From Fluviicola sp. XM-24bin1 (lineage in GTDB: Bacteria; Bacteroidota; Bacteroidia; Flavobacteriales_D; Crocinitomicaceae): 64,000 nt of DNA. Below are positions 53,922-60,587 of the stretch, one piece after another (the stretch's first letter is position 1; each line of letters begins with the position of its first letter). The stretch covers positions 230,500 through 294,499 of the forward strand of contig QCWI01000004.1 in the NCBI GenBank assembly GCA_003149635.1. Direction: 5' to 3'. The notes under the pieces are model-generated. The model was not told the origin of the DNA. It saw only the letters and a program-made list of their open reading frames with translations, and made no database searches. The position numbers were made by a program, and so were the translations under genes.

Positions 53922-53957
53922 TCAAAAAACCCGCTTCAGTCAGTGACCGAACGGGTT
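53922..53957 (-). terminator. putative attenuator terminator upstream of DAHP synthase/chorismate mutase
   Basis: On - strand AACCCGTTCGGTCACTGACTGAAGCGGGTT then TTTT (T-tract overlaps stem end); 6-bp GC-rich base plus internal GAA/TTC and GTC/GAC pairs; ends ~10 nt before ATG. Confidence 0.75.
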
Positions 53958-53990
53958 GTTATTTTTTATTTCATACAACACTCAAACGGC

Positions 53991-54038
53991 CTAAACTAGG
54001 TCGTTCCAGAACCACTTGTATGTGTTGGTTGTAATCAT
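53991..54038 (-). CDS. putative aromatic amino acid leader peptide MITTNTYKWFWNDLV
   Basis: 15-codon ORF with Tyr, Trp, Phe, Trp codons directly upstream of a terminator hairpin and the DAHP synthase gene. Confidence 0.75.
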   Translation of the reverse strand: MITTNTYKWFWNDLV

Positions 54039-54076
54039 TTACATCACAAAGGGAAAAAAAATATTTCAATTGACGT

Positions 54077-54113: not shown

Positions 54114-54194
54114 ATGAATACAACATCACATATCAACACGACAGAACAAAATTGGTGGTGGAGCACAACTCTTCGATGGTGTGCCTGGCGTTAG
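54114..54194 (+). CDS. trpL: trp operon leader peptide MNTTSHINTTEQNWWWSTTLRWCAWR
   Basis: 26-aa ORF with three consecutive Trp codons plus two more; followed by a hairpin with T-tract and trpE. Confidence 0.9.
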   Translation: MNTTSHINTTEQNWWWSTTLRWCAWR

Positions 54195-54216
54195 TATATG
54201 TAGATCTTAAATATTG

Positions 54217-54251
54217 AAACGACTTGTCACATCTGGCAGGTCGTTTTTTTT
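54217..54251 (+). terminator. trp attenuator terminator
   Basis: AACGACTTG-tcacatctgg-CAGGTCGTT (one G.U) followed by 8-T tract (54244-54251). Confidence 0.88.
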
Positions 54252-54269: not shown

Positions 54270-55703
54270 ATGATTTATTCAAAAACCCGCAGGTTTAACG
54301 CGGACACACATACCCCGGTACAACTGTACCTTCAGCTCAGACATCACTTCCGAAATTGTTGTCTACTGGAAAGTAACGATTACCATTCCCGACAGGACAG
54401 CCGTTCGTTCATTGGGTTCGATCCATTAGTATCAATTGAGTTGAAAGACGGTCAATTCGAGATAAAGGAGAATGGGGAAATCAAAACTATTCCAGTAAAT
54501 GAGTCAAAAGAGAACAGTGCACTTCGACAAGCTCAGCGTACTGTCTCTTTGACAGACCAAGTTCAAAATCTCCTCGATGAATACACGTTCGAACATCCTG
54601 AATACAACGGTTTTTTCGGACGAATGAGCTTCGAGTTTACGCATCAAGACGAAACACATATTACCAGCGAATCTTCTCAATCTGACATTCCTCTTTTGCA
54701 CTTATTTCTGTTTCGCTACGTGATTGTGATCGATCACTTTACCAACGAAGGAATTCTCCTTGAAAACAGCCTCTCCCAAGATTTTAAAGGATTAACGATG
54801 GATTCCATCATGCGACTTCCTGCTCCATCCATTCTGCCTTTCGAGACTGTTGGAAACGAAACTTCATCACTCAGCGATCTTGAATTTTCAAATCTGGTAA
54901 TTAAAGGAATCGATCATTGCAAACGTGGTGATGTATTTCAGTTGGTGCTTTCAAATGCTTTCCAACAAACATATTTCGGAGATGATTTTCACGTGTATCG
55001 ACAACTGCGCCGTACCAATCCATCACCTTACCTTTTCTATTTTGATTTTGAATCCTACCGATTGTTTGGATCTTCTCCCGAAGCACAAACAGTCGTAAAA
55101 AATGGAAAGGTGGAAATTCATCCGATTGCCGGAACGGTTCCTAAAACGGGGGAAGATGAAATCGATGCGGAACAGCTCGAATTCCTCAAGAAAGATGAAA
55201 AAGAAAATGCAGAACACACTATGTTGGTAGACTTGGCTCGAAATGATTTGAGTCGCAACTGTACCGATGTTCAGATCGAAGCCTATAAGGAGATTCAACA
55301 TTTCAGTCATGTGATTCATTTGGTCTCGAAAGTGACTGGAAAGTGCGATTCTGATGATACTTTCAAAACGATCAGCCAAGCATTTCCAGCCGGCACCTTA
55401 TCGGGAACTCCCAAGCCAAGAGCGATGGAATTGATTCACGATTATGAAAAACAACCGCGTGGATTCTACGGTGGCGCTATCGGAATGCTTCAACCGAACG
55501 GAGATGCAAACATGGCCATCGTGATACGCAGCATTCTGAGCAAGGAAAATCAATTGAACTATCAAGCCGGAGCTGGAATCGTTTTGGATTCCGATCCCGA
55601 GCGAGAAACACAGGAAGTTCATCACAAGCTAAGAGCTGTCCGCGAAGCCATTCGAAAGGCGCATAGCTTTCAATCGGAAACTGAAAAAACTACGGCATCA
55701 TGA
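54270..55703 (+). CDS. trpE: anthranilate synthase component I
   Basis: PSPYLFYFDF..LFGSSPEAQT; HPIAGTVPKTG; FPAGTLSGTPKPRAMELI; GGAIGMLQPNGDANMAIVIRS. Confidence 0.95.
   Translation: MIYSKTRRFNADTHTPVQLYLQLRHHFRNCCLLESNDYHSRQDSRSFIGFDPLVSIELKDGQFEIKENGEIKTIPVNESKENSALRQAQRTVSLTDQVQNLLDEYTFEHPEYNGFFGRMSFEFTHQDETHITSESSQSDIPLLHLFLFRYVIVIDHFTNEGILLENSLSQDFKGLTMDSIMRLPAPSILPFETVGNETSSLSDLEFSNLVIKGIDHCKRGDVFQLVLSNAFQQTYFGDDFHVYRQLRRTNPSPYLFYFDFESYRLFGSSPEAQTVVKNGKVEIHPIAGTVPKTGEDEIDAEQLEFLKKDEKENAEHTMLVDLARNDLSRNCTDVQIEAYKEIQHFSHVIHLVSKVTGKCDSDDTFKTISQAFPAGTLSGTPKPRAMELIHDYEKQPRGFYGGAIGMLQPNGDANMAIVIRSILSKENQLNYQAGAGIVLDSDPERETQEVHHKLRAVREAIRKAHSFQSETEKTTAS
54509..54550. repeat. dispersed palindromic repeat inserted in frame within trpE
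   Basis: AGAGAACAGTGCACTTCGACAAGCTCAGCGTACTGTCTCT; arms ACAGT/ACTGT and AGAG/CTCT; antisense reads STLSLSKCTV. Confidence 0.75.
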
Positions 55704-56284
55704 AAATTGCAGTCATCAATAATTTCGATTCGTTCGTGTTCAATTTGGTTCGATACCTCAAAGAAACGGGATGCGAAGTCATCGTGCAGCGAAACGATCA
55801 AGTAGATTTCGAAGAACTAGATACTTGCGATGGAATCCTGCTGTCACCCGGCCCGGGAATCCCATCGGAGGCAGGAGCATTGATGGACGTCATCCGTCAT
55901 TTTGCAATGAAAAAACCAATTCTCGGTGTTTGTCTCGGACATCAGGCCTTAGCAGAACATTTCGGGGGGGCGCTCGCATTGGCGAAAATTCCCATGCACG
56001 GGAAGTCATCAAAGATTCAAAGACTGAACGATTCGAAGATTTTAAACGACATCCCGGAATCCTTCGAAGTGGGTCGATATCATAGTTGGATCGCAGAATT
56101 ACCGCTTCCCGAATCTTTAAAAATCACAGCTTCCTTTGAAAATGAAATCATGGCTTTTGAACACAGAGAATTGCCTGTTTTCGGAGTGCAGTTTCACCCG
56201 GAATCCATTCTCACGCCAGAGGGGCGAACAATGATTCAGAATTATGTCAATGTTGTCAAACATTCAATCCCAGTAACGATATGA
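55700..56284 (+). CDS. trpG: anthranilate synthase component II (glutamine amidotransferase)
   Basis: LLSPGPGIPSEAG; GVCLGHQALAE; GVQFHPESILT. Confidence 0.95.
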   Translation: MKIAVINNFDSFVFNLVRYLKETGCEVIVQRNDQVDFEELDTCDGILLSPGPGIPSEAGALMDVIRHFAMKKPILGVCLGHQALAEHFGGALALAKIPMHGKSSKIQRLNDSKILNDIPESFEVGRYHSWIAELPLPESLKITASFENEIMAFEHRELPVFGVQFHPESILTPEGRTMIQNYVNVVKHSIPVTI

Positions 56285-57258
56285 AACGATTTTTAGAAAC
56301 TATAATGGACAAGGAGTATTTCTCCAAAGCGACCGCCGCTGAGTTCATTCATGCCATTGGCGAAGACGCAGTCTCCGATGCAGAAATCGCGGCCATTCTA
56401 TCAGGAATTCAATTCCGTGGAGTATCCTTGGAAGAATTGGATGGATTCCGTGAAGCCTTGTTAGAACGGGCAACGAAACCAGAAATTGACAGCGAAAATT
56501 GCATCGATGTGTGTGGGACGGGAGGCGATGGAAAAGATACCTTCAACATCTCTACGACCTCAGCTCTGGTGCTCGCAGCTATGGGATATAAAGTGATCAA
56601 ACATGGAAACTACGGTGTAAGTTCAAGTTGTGGTTCCTCTAATGTTTTGGAATCTCTAGGATTTCGATTTACCACAGACAATAAAGAATTTGAAGCAGAT
56701 TTACGTCAAAACAACATTTGTTTTCTGCATGCTCCCCTTTTCCATCCGACTCTGAAAAAAGTGGCACCGGTAAGAAAGCAATTGGGTGTACGGACGATCT
56801 TCAACAGTCTTGGGCCGCTAGTAAATCCTGTGCAGCCTTCTTTTCAATTGACCGGAACGTATTCCTTGGAACTGGCTAAAATGTATCAGCATGTATTACG
56901 CCAGAATCGAAAGGCTTTTTCGGTTGTGTACGCCATGGATGGTTATGACGAAATCACGCTCACAGATGCAACGCGCTTGCTAGCGAACAACAACGATTCC
57001 ATCGTTTCTGCGGCTAGTTTTGGAAAGAATACTGTGAATCCTGACCATTTAAAATCAGGTGGAACGATCGACAAAGCCGCTGAAATTCTAACGGCAATTG
57101 CAAATGGAAATGGAACCGAGGCACAGACGAATGTGGTAGCGGCGAACGTGGCGACAGCCATTCAGACAATCCAATCCGGAACGACACTCAAAGATGCCTT
57201 TGACGAAGCACAACAATTCATTCGAAGCGGACAAACCGCAAAACACTTTAAAATTTGA
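56281..57258 (+). CDS. trpD: anthranilate phosphoribosyltransferase
   Basis: DVCGTGGDGKDTFNISTTSALVLAAMGYKVIKHGNYGVSSSCGSSNVLE. Confidence 0.96.
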   Translation: MKRFLETIMDKEYFSKATAAEFIHAIGEDAVSDAEIAAILSGIQFRGVSLEELDGFREALLERATKPEIDSENCIDVCGTGGDGKDTFNISTTSALVLAAMGYKVIKHGNYGVSSSCGSSNVLESLGFRFTTDNKEFEADLRQNNICFLHAPLFHPTLKKVAPVRKQLGVRTIFNSLGPLVNPVQPSFQLTGTYSLELAKMYQHVLRQNRKAFSVVYAMDGYDEITLTDATRLLANNNDSIVSAASFGKNTVNPDHLKSGGTIDKAAEILTAIANGNGTEAQTNVVAANVATAIQTIQSGTTLKDAFDEAQQFIRSGQTAKHFKI

Positions 57259-57292
57259 CTTGACTCATTATTCAATATTCCTTATTCCTATT

Positions 57293-58078
57293 ATGATGAA
57301 AACAATACTTGACAAAATAGCAGAGAACAAAAGGCAAGAAATTGCAGTGCTGAAATCGAAATATAAACTTTCGGATTTCGAATCCATGCTCTTTTTTCAC
57401 CAAGAAACGCGATCGCTTTCGAACGCAATCCAACAACAAGAGTTCGGCATTATCGCAGAATTCAAACGAAAATCGCCAAGCGCTGGCGATATCCGAATGG
57501 CAGCTGATCCCTTAGATGTGGTTGCCAATTATCAAAAGGCTGGAGCAGCTGCGATCTCGTGCCTCACGGATACAGCATATTTCGGTGGAAGTATGCGTGA
57601 TTTGGAAATCATCCGCGAGTTTACGAAGCTTCCTGTTTTGCGCAAAGATTTTATTATCGACGAAATCCAGTTGTTTGAAGCGAAAGCACATGGCGCCGAC
57701 GCTGTTTTGTTGATTTCCGAATTGCTCGATCCCGAACACGCGAAACAATTGACCATCATTGCGCAATCTCTAGGAATGGAAGTTTTGATGGAAGCGCACG
57801 ATCGCGCGCACCTCGAAAAAATTAATGATTTGGTAGATGTCATCGGAATCAACAATCGCGACTTGCACGCACAGAAAACGGATATCGAAACGTCGATTCA
57901 ACTCTTCGATTATCTACCCAAAGATCGTCTGTGTATTTCAGAATCTGGAGTAAAAGCAGCTGCCGATTTAGAAAGATTGCAAGCGACGGGATATCATGGT
58001 GCTTTGGTCGGAGAAAGCTTATTGAAGACAGATAATCCAGCAAGTCTCATTTCAAAAACGCCTGTTCCATGTTCGTAA
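57293..58078 (+). CDS. trpC: indole-3-glycerol phosphate synthase
   Basis: IIAEFKRKSPSAGDI; VLRKDFIIDEIQLFEAKAHGADAVLLI; IGINNRDL. Confidence 0.95.
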   Translation: MMKTILDKIAENKRQEIAVLKSKYKLSDFESMLFFHQETRSLSNAIQQQEFGIIAEFKRKSPSAGDIRMAADPLDVVANYQKAGAAAISCLTDTAYFGGSMRDLEIIREFTKLPVLRKDFIIDEIQLFEAKAHGADAVLLISELLDPEHAKQLTIIAQSLGMEVLMEAHDRAHLEKINDLVDVIGINNRDLHAQKTDIETSIQLFDYLPKDRLCISESGVKAAADLERLQATGYHGALVGESLLKTDNPASLISKTPVPCS

Positions 58079-58665
58079 AAGTTTGTGGCATCACCACCCC
58101 TCAACAAGCACATGAGATTTCACAATTAGTGGATTACGTGGGGTTCATTTTCCATCCGGGATCGCCGCGATTCGTTTCGCAATCGTATCCTTCGATGAAA
58201 GCCAAAAAAGTAGGCGTGCTTGTGAATGTACCCCTGCAAGAACTCATTCAAACAGCACTTTTGGAAAAATTAGACTCTGTACAATTGCATGGAAGTGAAT
58301 CTCCTGAATACTGCGCGGCAATGAAAGAACAAGTACAAGTGATCAAAAGTTTTGGCGTAGATGCTGATTTTGATTTTGATCAATTAAAAGCCTACGAACC
58401 TTACGTCGATTATTTCTTGTTCGATACAAAAACACCCAAGCATGGTGGCTCAGGGAAACAATTCGATTGGCGCTTGTTGAAACAATATCAAGGTGCTACT
58501 CCCTTCATTTTATCCGGTGGACTGCGCCCAGAATCCCTACCTCAAATTCAAGAGGTTAATCATCCCAAATTGACTGGAATTGATCTCAACAGCGGTTTTG
58601 AAACACAGCCCGGAATTAAAAATTTGCTCTTATTAAAACAGTTTCTCCATGATTTCCACAATTGA
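58069..58665 (+). CDS. trpF: phosphoribosylanthranilate isomerase
   Basis: [46 protein letters not shown]. Confidence 0.95.
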
Positions 58666-59845
58666 CTACAAACAACCCGATGAGCTCGGTTTCTATGGTG
58701 ATTTCGGTGGCGCTTTCATCCCAGAATTGTTGCGTCCGAACGTAGAAGAACTCAACAATGCATTCCTTGCGATGCGGGACAATGCAACGTTCCAAGAAGA
58801 GTTCCAAGATTTACTTCGCAATTACGTGGGGCGCCCCTCCCCTCTATATTATTCCCAATATTTAAGCGAGACCTACGGCGCCAAGATTTACTTGAAACGA
58901 GAAGATTTAAATCACACTGGATCTCATAAAATCAACAATGCACTGGGTCAAATTCTATTGGCGCAACGCATGAACAAGCGCAAAATCATTGCGGAAACTG
59001 GAGCGGGACAGCACGGAGTTGCGACAGCTACAGCCTGCGCCTTGCTCAAGATGGAATGCATCGTATTCATGGGAGAAAAAGATATGGAGCGTCAGGCGCC
59101 AAACGTTCAACGGATGCGCATGTTAGGTGCAACCGTTATCGCTGCGACAAGTGGCAGTAAAACGCTCAAAGACGCAACGAACGAGGCTATCCGATATTGG
59201 ATCAATAATCCCGATGCATATTACCTCATCGGTAGTGTTGTTGGGCCGCATCCATATCCAGAAATGGTGGCCTACTTTCAATCGGTAATTAGCCAAGAAA
59301 TTCGATCTCAACTTATCGAAAAAGAAGGAAAAAGTGTCCCGGATAAAGTCATCGCTTGTGTTGGAGGAGGAAGCAATGCCGCTGGTGCGTTCCATCATTT
59401 TTATTGCGAATCAACGGAATTAATCGCGGTGGAAGCAGGAGGAATGGGAGTGGATTCAGGGAAGTCAGCGGCAACCTCAGCTCTAGGAATCGACGGCGTT
59501 CTTCATGGAAGTAAAACAATTCTCATGCAAGACGAAGATGGACAGGTCGTGGAACCGCATTCCATCTCAGCCGGATTGGACTATCCAGGGATTGGCCCGG
59601 AGCACGCGAACGCCATTCGAAAAGAGCGAACCTTGGCCATCAATGTTACCGATCAAGAAGCCGTTGATGCCGCTTTCGAGTTGACACGGAACGAAGGAAT
59701 AATTCCCGCATTGGAAAGCGCTCATGCTATTGCAACCTTGAAGAAAATCAATTTTAAATCGGATGAAATCGTTGTGATCAATCTATCGGGTCGTGGCGAC
59801 AAAGACATGTCCACTTATCAAAAACATTATGAATCCATTTCGTAA
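58649..59845 (+). CDS. trpB: tryptophan synthase beta subunit
   Basis: [42 protein letters not shown]. Confidence 0.97.
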
Positions 59846-60587
59846 AAACAACAAGCAACTGAGCATTTTTGTGACTGCGGGATTTCCGGAATTGAACGCA
59901 TTACCTTCTCAAATTGAATTTTCACAATCAAAAGGTATCGACTTTATCGAAGTTGGAATTCCCTTCTCCGATCCTATGGCGGACGGCCCTACAATTCAAG
60001 AATCCAGTGAAATTGCATTGAAAAATGGAATGAACGTGGGATTGATGTTTGAGCAATTAGCAACTGTAAATGTGAACATTCCTTTGGTGATCATGAGCTA
60101 TTTCAATCCGATCATGCATTACGGTTTGGAGCGCTTTCTGAAGCAATGCAAAAGCTGCGGAATTGCCCATGTGATTCTCCCAGACATCAGCATGGAAGTG
60201 TATAAGAAGCTGTATCGAACAACTTTTGAGAAATATGGTGTGACGCTGTGTTTCCTGATTACTCCAAGCACTTCCTCCGACCGAATATCGAAGATGAGCT
60301 CCTTGAGTTCGAATGGATTCTTGTACTTGGTTTCATCGAACATGACAACAGGGAATTCAGTGAAGAGTGCGAGTGTGAGTGAGGAGGATGTAAAGCGAAT
60401 TCGGGAAGCAGCGGGTGATACTCCAATGATGATTGGTTTTGGTATTAAATCGCGGGGAGACGTTCTCGAAGCACAAAAAAATGCAGATGGTGCCATCATC
60501 GGTTCTGCCTACATTCGCGCCTTATCGGAAGGGCGTCAGGAGGAATTTATTTCGAGCGTTTCGTCGCCTGAACTACAAAATCTTTGA
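59829..60587 (+). CDS. trpA: tryptophan synthase alpha subunit
   Basis: [42 protein letters not shown]; start moved to [11 protein letters not shown]. Confidence 0.95.

Follow-up and report, generated by a model that had tools for sequence, protein, structure and literature searches.

Comparison of upstream sequences among relatives makes it highly likely that the gene for a DAHP synthase/chorismate mutase fusion protein (DAHPS-CM) in Fluviicola sp. XM-24bin1 is controlled by a Trp-responsive, ribosome-mediated transcription attenuator. The window, by which we mean the whole 64,000-nucleotide stretch of DNA that was analysed, had earlier been read from its letters alone, and that original prediction placed an unannotated attenuator before DAHPS-CM with a leader peptide that senses the whole aromatic pool. 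The attenuator was very probably called correctly, and the breadth of sensing was very probably wrong. The features of the region are collected in Table 1.

Direct reading of the minus strand places the leader ATG at 54038-54036 and the stop codon TAG at 53993-53991, so the predicted coordinates and sequence of the ORF are exact. The ORF had been described as holding four aromatic codons in a row of five; four aromatic residues do fall within five codons (Y-K-W-F-W), with a Lys interrupting the row. Tyr7 lies 5' of the Trp codons, and Trp11 is four residues from the end of the peptide. The order that had been proposed, with a promoter followed by the ORF, a hairpin and DAHPS-CM, agrees with the presence of a -7-like box and an intrinsic terminator on either side of the ORF. 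The downstream gene is DAHPS-CM as predicted, with Pfam matches to PF00793 (DAHP synthase domain) at 8e-37 and to PF01817 (type II chorismate mutase) at 1.3e-17. The leader is also unannotated, as had been said, in that it matches no Rfam family; the DAHPS-CM strand of the window reaches the gathering score of neither RF01692 nor RF00513.

Table 1. Features of the DAHPS-CM leader region and of the divergent trp operon (positions in the window)
Feature	Positions	Strand	Basis or remark
Candidate promoter -7-like box TCCCTTTG (Bacteroidota consensus TAnnTTTG)	54047-54054	-	9-16 nt 5' of leader ATG
Leader ORF MITTNTYKWFWNDLV, 15 codons and stop	53991-54038	-	Read directly; 31 Trp-codon leaders at homologous position in relatives
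Putative regulatory codons Trp9-Phe10-Trp11 (UGG UUC UGG)	54006-54014	-	Trp codons alone conserved
Segment 1 of predicted 1:2 hairpin (GAACG-A-CCTA)	53997-54006	-	Folding; last base of Trp11 to just before stop
Segment 2 of predicted 1:2 hairpin (TAGG-C-CGTTT)	53984-53993	-	Overlaps stop codon; pairs with segment 1
Predicted antiterminator 5' strand GGCCG	53987-53991	-	Pairs with CGGTC at 53949-53945; cotranscriptional fold, ribosome stalled at first Trp
Predicted antiterminator helper helix, GTTGT with ACAAC	53979-53975 with 53959-53955	-	Same cotranscriptional fold
Intrinsic terminator AACCCGTTCGGT CAC TGACTGAAGCGGGTT and T-run	53924-53956	-	Fold; same place in 31 leaders
DAHP synthase (type I beta-like)/chorismate mutase (AroQ) fusion, 359 aa	52833-53912	-	Pfam PF00793 and PF01817
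trp operon leader ORF MNTTSHINTTEQNWWWSTTLRWCAWR and stop	54114-54194	+	Read directly; weak RF01692 match
trp operon attenuator terminator	54216-54251	+	14-bp hairpin and T-run
trpEGDCFBA operon, divergent from DAHPS-CM	54270-60587	+	ORF list; TrpE, TrpG and TrpD by Pfam; C, F, B and A assigned only from position and recognisable sequence

In Bacteroidota, the -7 element TAnnTTTG occupies positions -12 to -5 (PMC9723704). A TTTG box is found close 5' of the ATG in 30 of the 31 leaders, 13 of which carry the exact TAnnTTTG sequence. Since 8-23 nt separate this box from the leader ATG in most relatives, transcription probably starts just 5' of the leader. The terminator hairpin of the window has 12 bp and a U-tract and is located 34 nt past the leader stop codon and 11 nt before the DAHPS-CM ATG (53912); the segment from the stop codon to the T-run folds at -17.8 kcal/mol. 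The distance from the stop codon to the start of the terminator is 7-37 nt across the 31 leaders, and the hairpin that was expected to be conserved in relatives is found at the same place in all 31.

DAHPS-CM loci were gathered from named genomes and from whole-genome sequences within the family and genus, and 157 distinct upstream regions were screened for an intrinsic terminator, ignoring amino-acid content. A terminator is present in 38 of these regions. We then scored as a leader any ATG-initiated ORF of 8-25 codons that contains W(x)W and ends just before the terminator. Such an ORF occurs in 31 of the 38 terminator-bearing regions, compared to 0.03 expected from dinucleotide shuffles, an excess that is not to be read as a p-value because the sequences are related by descent. 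Together with the terminator and antiterminator that are conserved in them, these leaders lend good comparative support to the original claim of ribosome-mediated attenuation. The last Trp sits 2-8 residues before the stop codon in the 31 leaders, and the first UGG is invariant in an alignment of 18 sequences (A1). The nearest relative, whose DAHPS-CM is 95% identical, carries the leader MITNNAYNWLWNDLT; further examples from relatives are MNRTQISWSWGALI, MKLTISNTWLWSNLK, MNFSKQNFWWWFKTR and MFKTNNTKWWSLNALSE.

The distribution of the leader follows that of the trp operon. Among loci with enough flanking sequence, a leader is present at 25 of 30 DAHPS-CM genes that are divergent from trpE and at 4 of 119 that have no trpE upstream, and several family members, the same genus included, are without any leader. 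At five loci (L011, L017, L019, L108 and L118), DAHPS-CM is divergent from trpE and no W(x)W leader is recognisable; at L108, a terminator is seen together with a distant ORF containing only one Trp. These loci possibly represent losses of the leader or alternative control. DAHPS-CM in records titled Actinomyces viscosus, Bifidobacterium breve, Chryseobacterium gleum and Halobacteriovorax (L012, L074, L030 and L058, respectively) resembles that of this family or its relatives, and the names of these metagenome-assembled genomes are probably wrong. In the window, the leader read on the plus strand gives the 357-bp intergenic region two back-to-back Trp leaders. The leader on the trp side matches RF01692 (Bacteroid-trp) at 54115-54228 on the plus strand with 27 bits, below the gathering score of 49, and this is the sole match in the genome; thus, Rfam would miss the trp operon leader.

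Cotranscriptional folds were simulated with a ribosome placed at chosen codons. With the ribosome at the first Trp codon, nearly every leader folds so that the strand beginning at the stop codon is paired to the terminator 5' arm, and with the ribosome at the stop codon this antiterminator strand is covered. Because a MAFFT alignment of all leaders misregistered the terminators between subgroups, we judged covariation from the duplex energies of cognate partners and of partners swapped between species. Cognate duplexes have a mean of -9.9 kcal/mol, compared to -7.6 kcal/mol for swapped ones, and 25 of 29 are better than their own swap mean (Wilcoxon p 3e-6, which is optimistic since relatives share descent and are not independent). 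At least one double-sided substitution preserves pairing (GUGCG/CGUAC to GUGCA/UGUAC). The antiterminator of the window is among the weaker ones, with a duplex z of -0.71 and 34% of swaps pairing better. These folds and energies point to an antiterminator that would exclude the terminator and be exposed only when a ribosome stalls early, though weakly so in the window itself. Segment 2 of the 1:2 hairpin lies right at the stop codon, a position conserved in relatives. The 1:2 hairpin appears in most predicted folds; its support from cognate and swapped partners is weak, with a p of 0.03 overall and no difference in the 18 closest sequences.

On the model that we propose, transcription would begin just before the leader ATG and the leader would be translated as it is made. 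When charged tRNA-Trp is plentiful, the ribosome would pass Trp9 and Trp11 and reach the stop codon, where its footprint would cover the antiterminator strand that starts there; the terminator would then form and transcription would end before DAHPS-CM. Under Trp shortage, the ribosome would stall at the Trp codons, so that the antiterminator strand could pair with the 5' arm of the terminator, and DAHPS-CM would be transcribed. A probable role for the 1:2 hairpin, which spans the stop codon, is that of a pause and default-off element.

The choice of Trp as the signal has to be weighed against the original proposal, in which a stall at Tyr7, Trp9, Phe10 or Trp11 would report a shortage of any aromatic amino acid. 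The window leader invites that reading, with Y, W, F and W inside five codons, and a stall at Tyr7 would likewise free the antiterminator because Tyr7 lies upstream. Its expectation that Tyr, Trp and Phe codons are all conserved in relatives is borne out for Trp only: Trp is present in 31/31 curated leaders (at least two in 29/31), compared to 15/31 for Tyr and 19/31 for Phe, and six leaders have neither Tyr nor Phe. The position between the two Trp residues, Phe in the window, is occupied by Leu, Gln, Ser or Trp in relatives, and already by Leu in the nearest of them. In the 38 terminator-bearing regions, Y(x)Y is not enriched (1 compared to 0.69 expected from shuffles) and F(x)F occurs in 6 (3.5 expected). 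The genome also appears to lack the usual route to Phe and Tyr, and elsewhere in the family leaders with runs of Phe and Tyr precede prephenate dehydratase operons. Even an F-Y-F leader, that of Corynebacterium glutamicum aroF, answers Phe and not Tyr (PMC11802643). Given that Trp is constant in the 31 leaders and that Tyr and Phe vary, the window leader is best read as a Trp leader whose Tyr and Phe are not conserved; sensing of the whole pool was rejected on codon conservation and appears improbable.

Two further explanations do without stalling at Trp codons, and we regard both as far less probable still. Intergenic regions do contain terminators and the ORF has only 15 codons, so the hairpin might merely terminate or insulate convergent or read-through transcripts, with the short ORF being incidental. 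Nothing needs ending before DAHPS-CM, however, since upstream transcription is divergent. In addition, 31 upstream regions share the position of a W(x)W ORF, compared to 0.03 expected, and the antiterminator is conserved with covariation; this explanation is exceedingly unlikely. Close relatives share the residues WND, as they might if the leader encoded a small regulatory protein acting through its amino-acid sequence. Nevertheless, 5 of the 15 residues differ between the window leader and its closest relative, all five codon changes being nonsynonymous, and the parts that do stay constant are the Trp codons and the bases that pair with RNA segment 2, leaving a functional small protein with almost no credence. 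A Trp-responsive attenuator remains the reading that we prefer.

The aromatic pathway content of the family offers an explanation for a sensor of Trp only. In the genome of XM-24bin1 (G000), which is 99.86% complete, we found no prephenate dehydratase (PF00800), no prephenate dehydrogenase (PF02153), no type II DAHP synthase and no second DAHPS; the only other PF00793 protein is KDO-8-phosphate synthase. Across the family, prephenate dehydratase is found in 22 of 150 genomes and prephenate dehydrogenase above the cut-off in 3 of 150, suggesting that most members have lost Phe and Tyr synthesis. Since the dehydratase and dehydrogenase are not detectable, Trp is probably the sole aromatic amino acid made by XM-24bin1 and by most family members, which would explain why the sensor is for Trp only. 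A change in the mutase domain is seen as well. Residue 311 of the window DAHPS-CM, which we take from an alignment to be equivalent to the active-site position Arg51 of E. coli chorismate mutase, is His in 67/77 family copies of the main enzyme, and the equivalent residue is Arg in 49/50 other Bacteroidota and in 4/4 second copies. His at this position is only a hint, one that would fit a relaxed or altered mutase function.

Two DAHPS-CM matches are present in 18 of the 22 dehydratase-bearing genomes, by our count from a comparison of match lists, and the second DAHPS-CM adjoins the dehydratase on the same strand wherever coordinates are given. Upstream of prephenate dehydratase, a Phe/Tyr-rich leader occurs in 11 of 13 terminator-bearing regions, compared to 0.15 expected, and W(x)W occurs in 0 of the same 13. 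Phe/Tyr leaders with terminators are seen at L194, L196-L198, L200, L203, L205 and L208-L212, MVQNFNFFFFSFFHKRD being one example. The leaders of these dehydratase operons, most of which include a second DAHPS-CM, look like another unannotated attenuator family. One genome (G131) has both kinds, with MRKHTTYTWFWNDMKN upstream of the trp-linked DAHPS-CM and MNMNNTTYYFFFSVSIHRNLERR upstream of the dehydratase operon. We lean, by a modest degree, toward the view that in this family DAHPS-CM has split into isozymes under codon-specific attenuators, the trp-linked one having a Trp leader and the dehydratase-linked one a Phe/Tyr leader, and that the Trp copy is left alone, with its mutase site changed, in the many members whose Phe and Tyr branches have been lost. 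Attenuation would then do here what the isozyme control of AroH, AroF and AroG does in E. coli. The two sets of leaders suggest that in Bacteroidota the codons of a leader, instead of a repressor, can determine which branch a DAHP synthase isozyme serves, and they offer a clean basis for comparing how the identity of leader codons tracks pathway loss. New Rfam families could be built from the approximately 31 leader sequences and from the Phe/Tyr group.

Attenuation of the trp operon by a Trp leader is a textbook case. The proteobacterial trpL type (RF00513, Trp_leader) shares with the window leader neighbouring Trp codons near the stop of a short ORF, predicted alternative 2:3 and 3:4 pairing with a U-tract terminator, and probably 1:2 pairing too; it differs in that it controls trpE, whereas the window leader precedes DAHPS-CM, and in that the window antiterminator strand starts right at the stop codon. 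In the window, RF00513 gives only a sub-threshold match (18.3 bits compared to a gathering score of 41, E 1.1). The known Trp leader of Bacteroidota, the Bacteroid-trp leader RNA RF01692 (PMC2864571), shares the phylum, a Trp leader and action in cis, sits at the trp end of the intergenic region that holds the DAHPS-side leader, and differs from that leader in peptide length and structure. In several relatives it exceeds its gathering score of 49 bits, and in the relatives its matches fall only on the trpE side; the DAHPS side gave no match, either for the window (E up to 10) or for 16 relatives (E up to 1).

Leader-peptide attenuation has been noted in Flavobacterium psychrophilum (PMC9723704). 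The original remark that no such leader had been described for DAHPS-CM in Bacteroidota agrees with our search, in which we found no report of a Trp leader on this gene in the open-access literature, where absence is not proof. A structure-only prediction does place a putative attenuator before the Bacteroides thetaiotaomicron operon pheA > hisHb > aroAIbeta-aroQ > tyrA (PMC1173090, table 7). Like the window, this is a predicted attenuator on a Bacteroidota operon that contains DAHPS-CM; it heads a Phe/Tyr operon, and the portion of the text available to us mentions no leader peptide. Another known case is aroR of C. glutamicum, the leader of the DAHP synthase gene aroF, which has F-Y-F and responds to Phe (PMC4046766, PMC11802643). 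It belongs to another phylum and uses a Phe-Tyr-Phe leader; nonetheless it shares leader-peptide attenuation of a DAHP synthase gene and mixed aromatic codons with one amino acid sensed, and it is thereby a precedent for a mixed aromatic leader that senses a single amino acid. The class of attenuator is thus already known, and what appears to be new is a Trp leader on DAHPS-CM, with an isozyme-specific arrangement around it.
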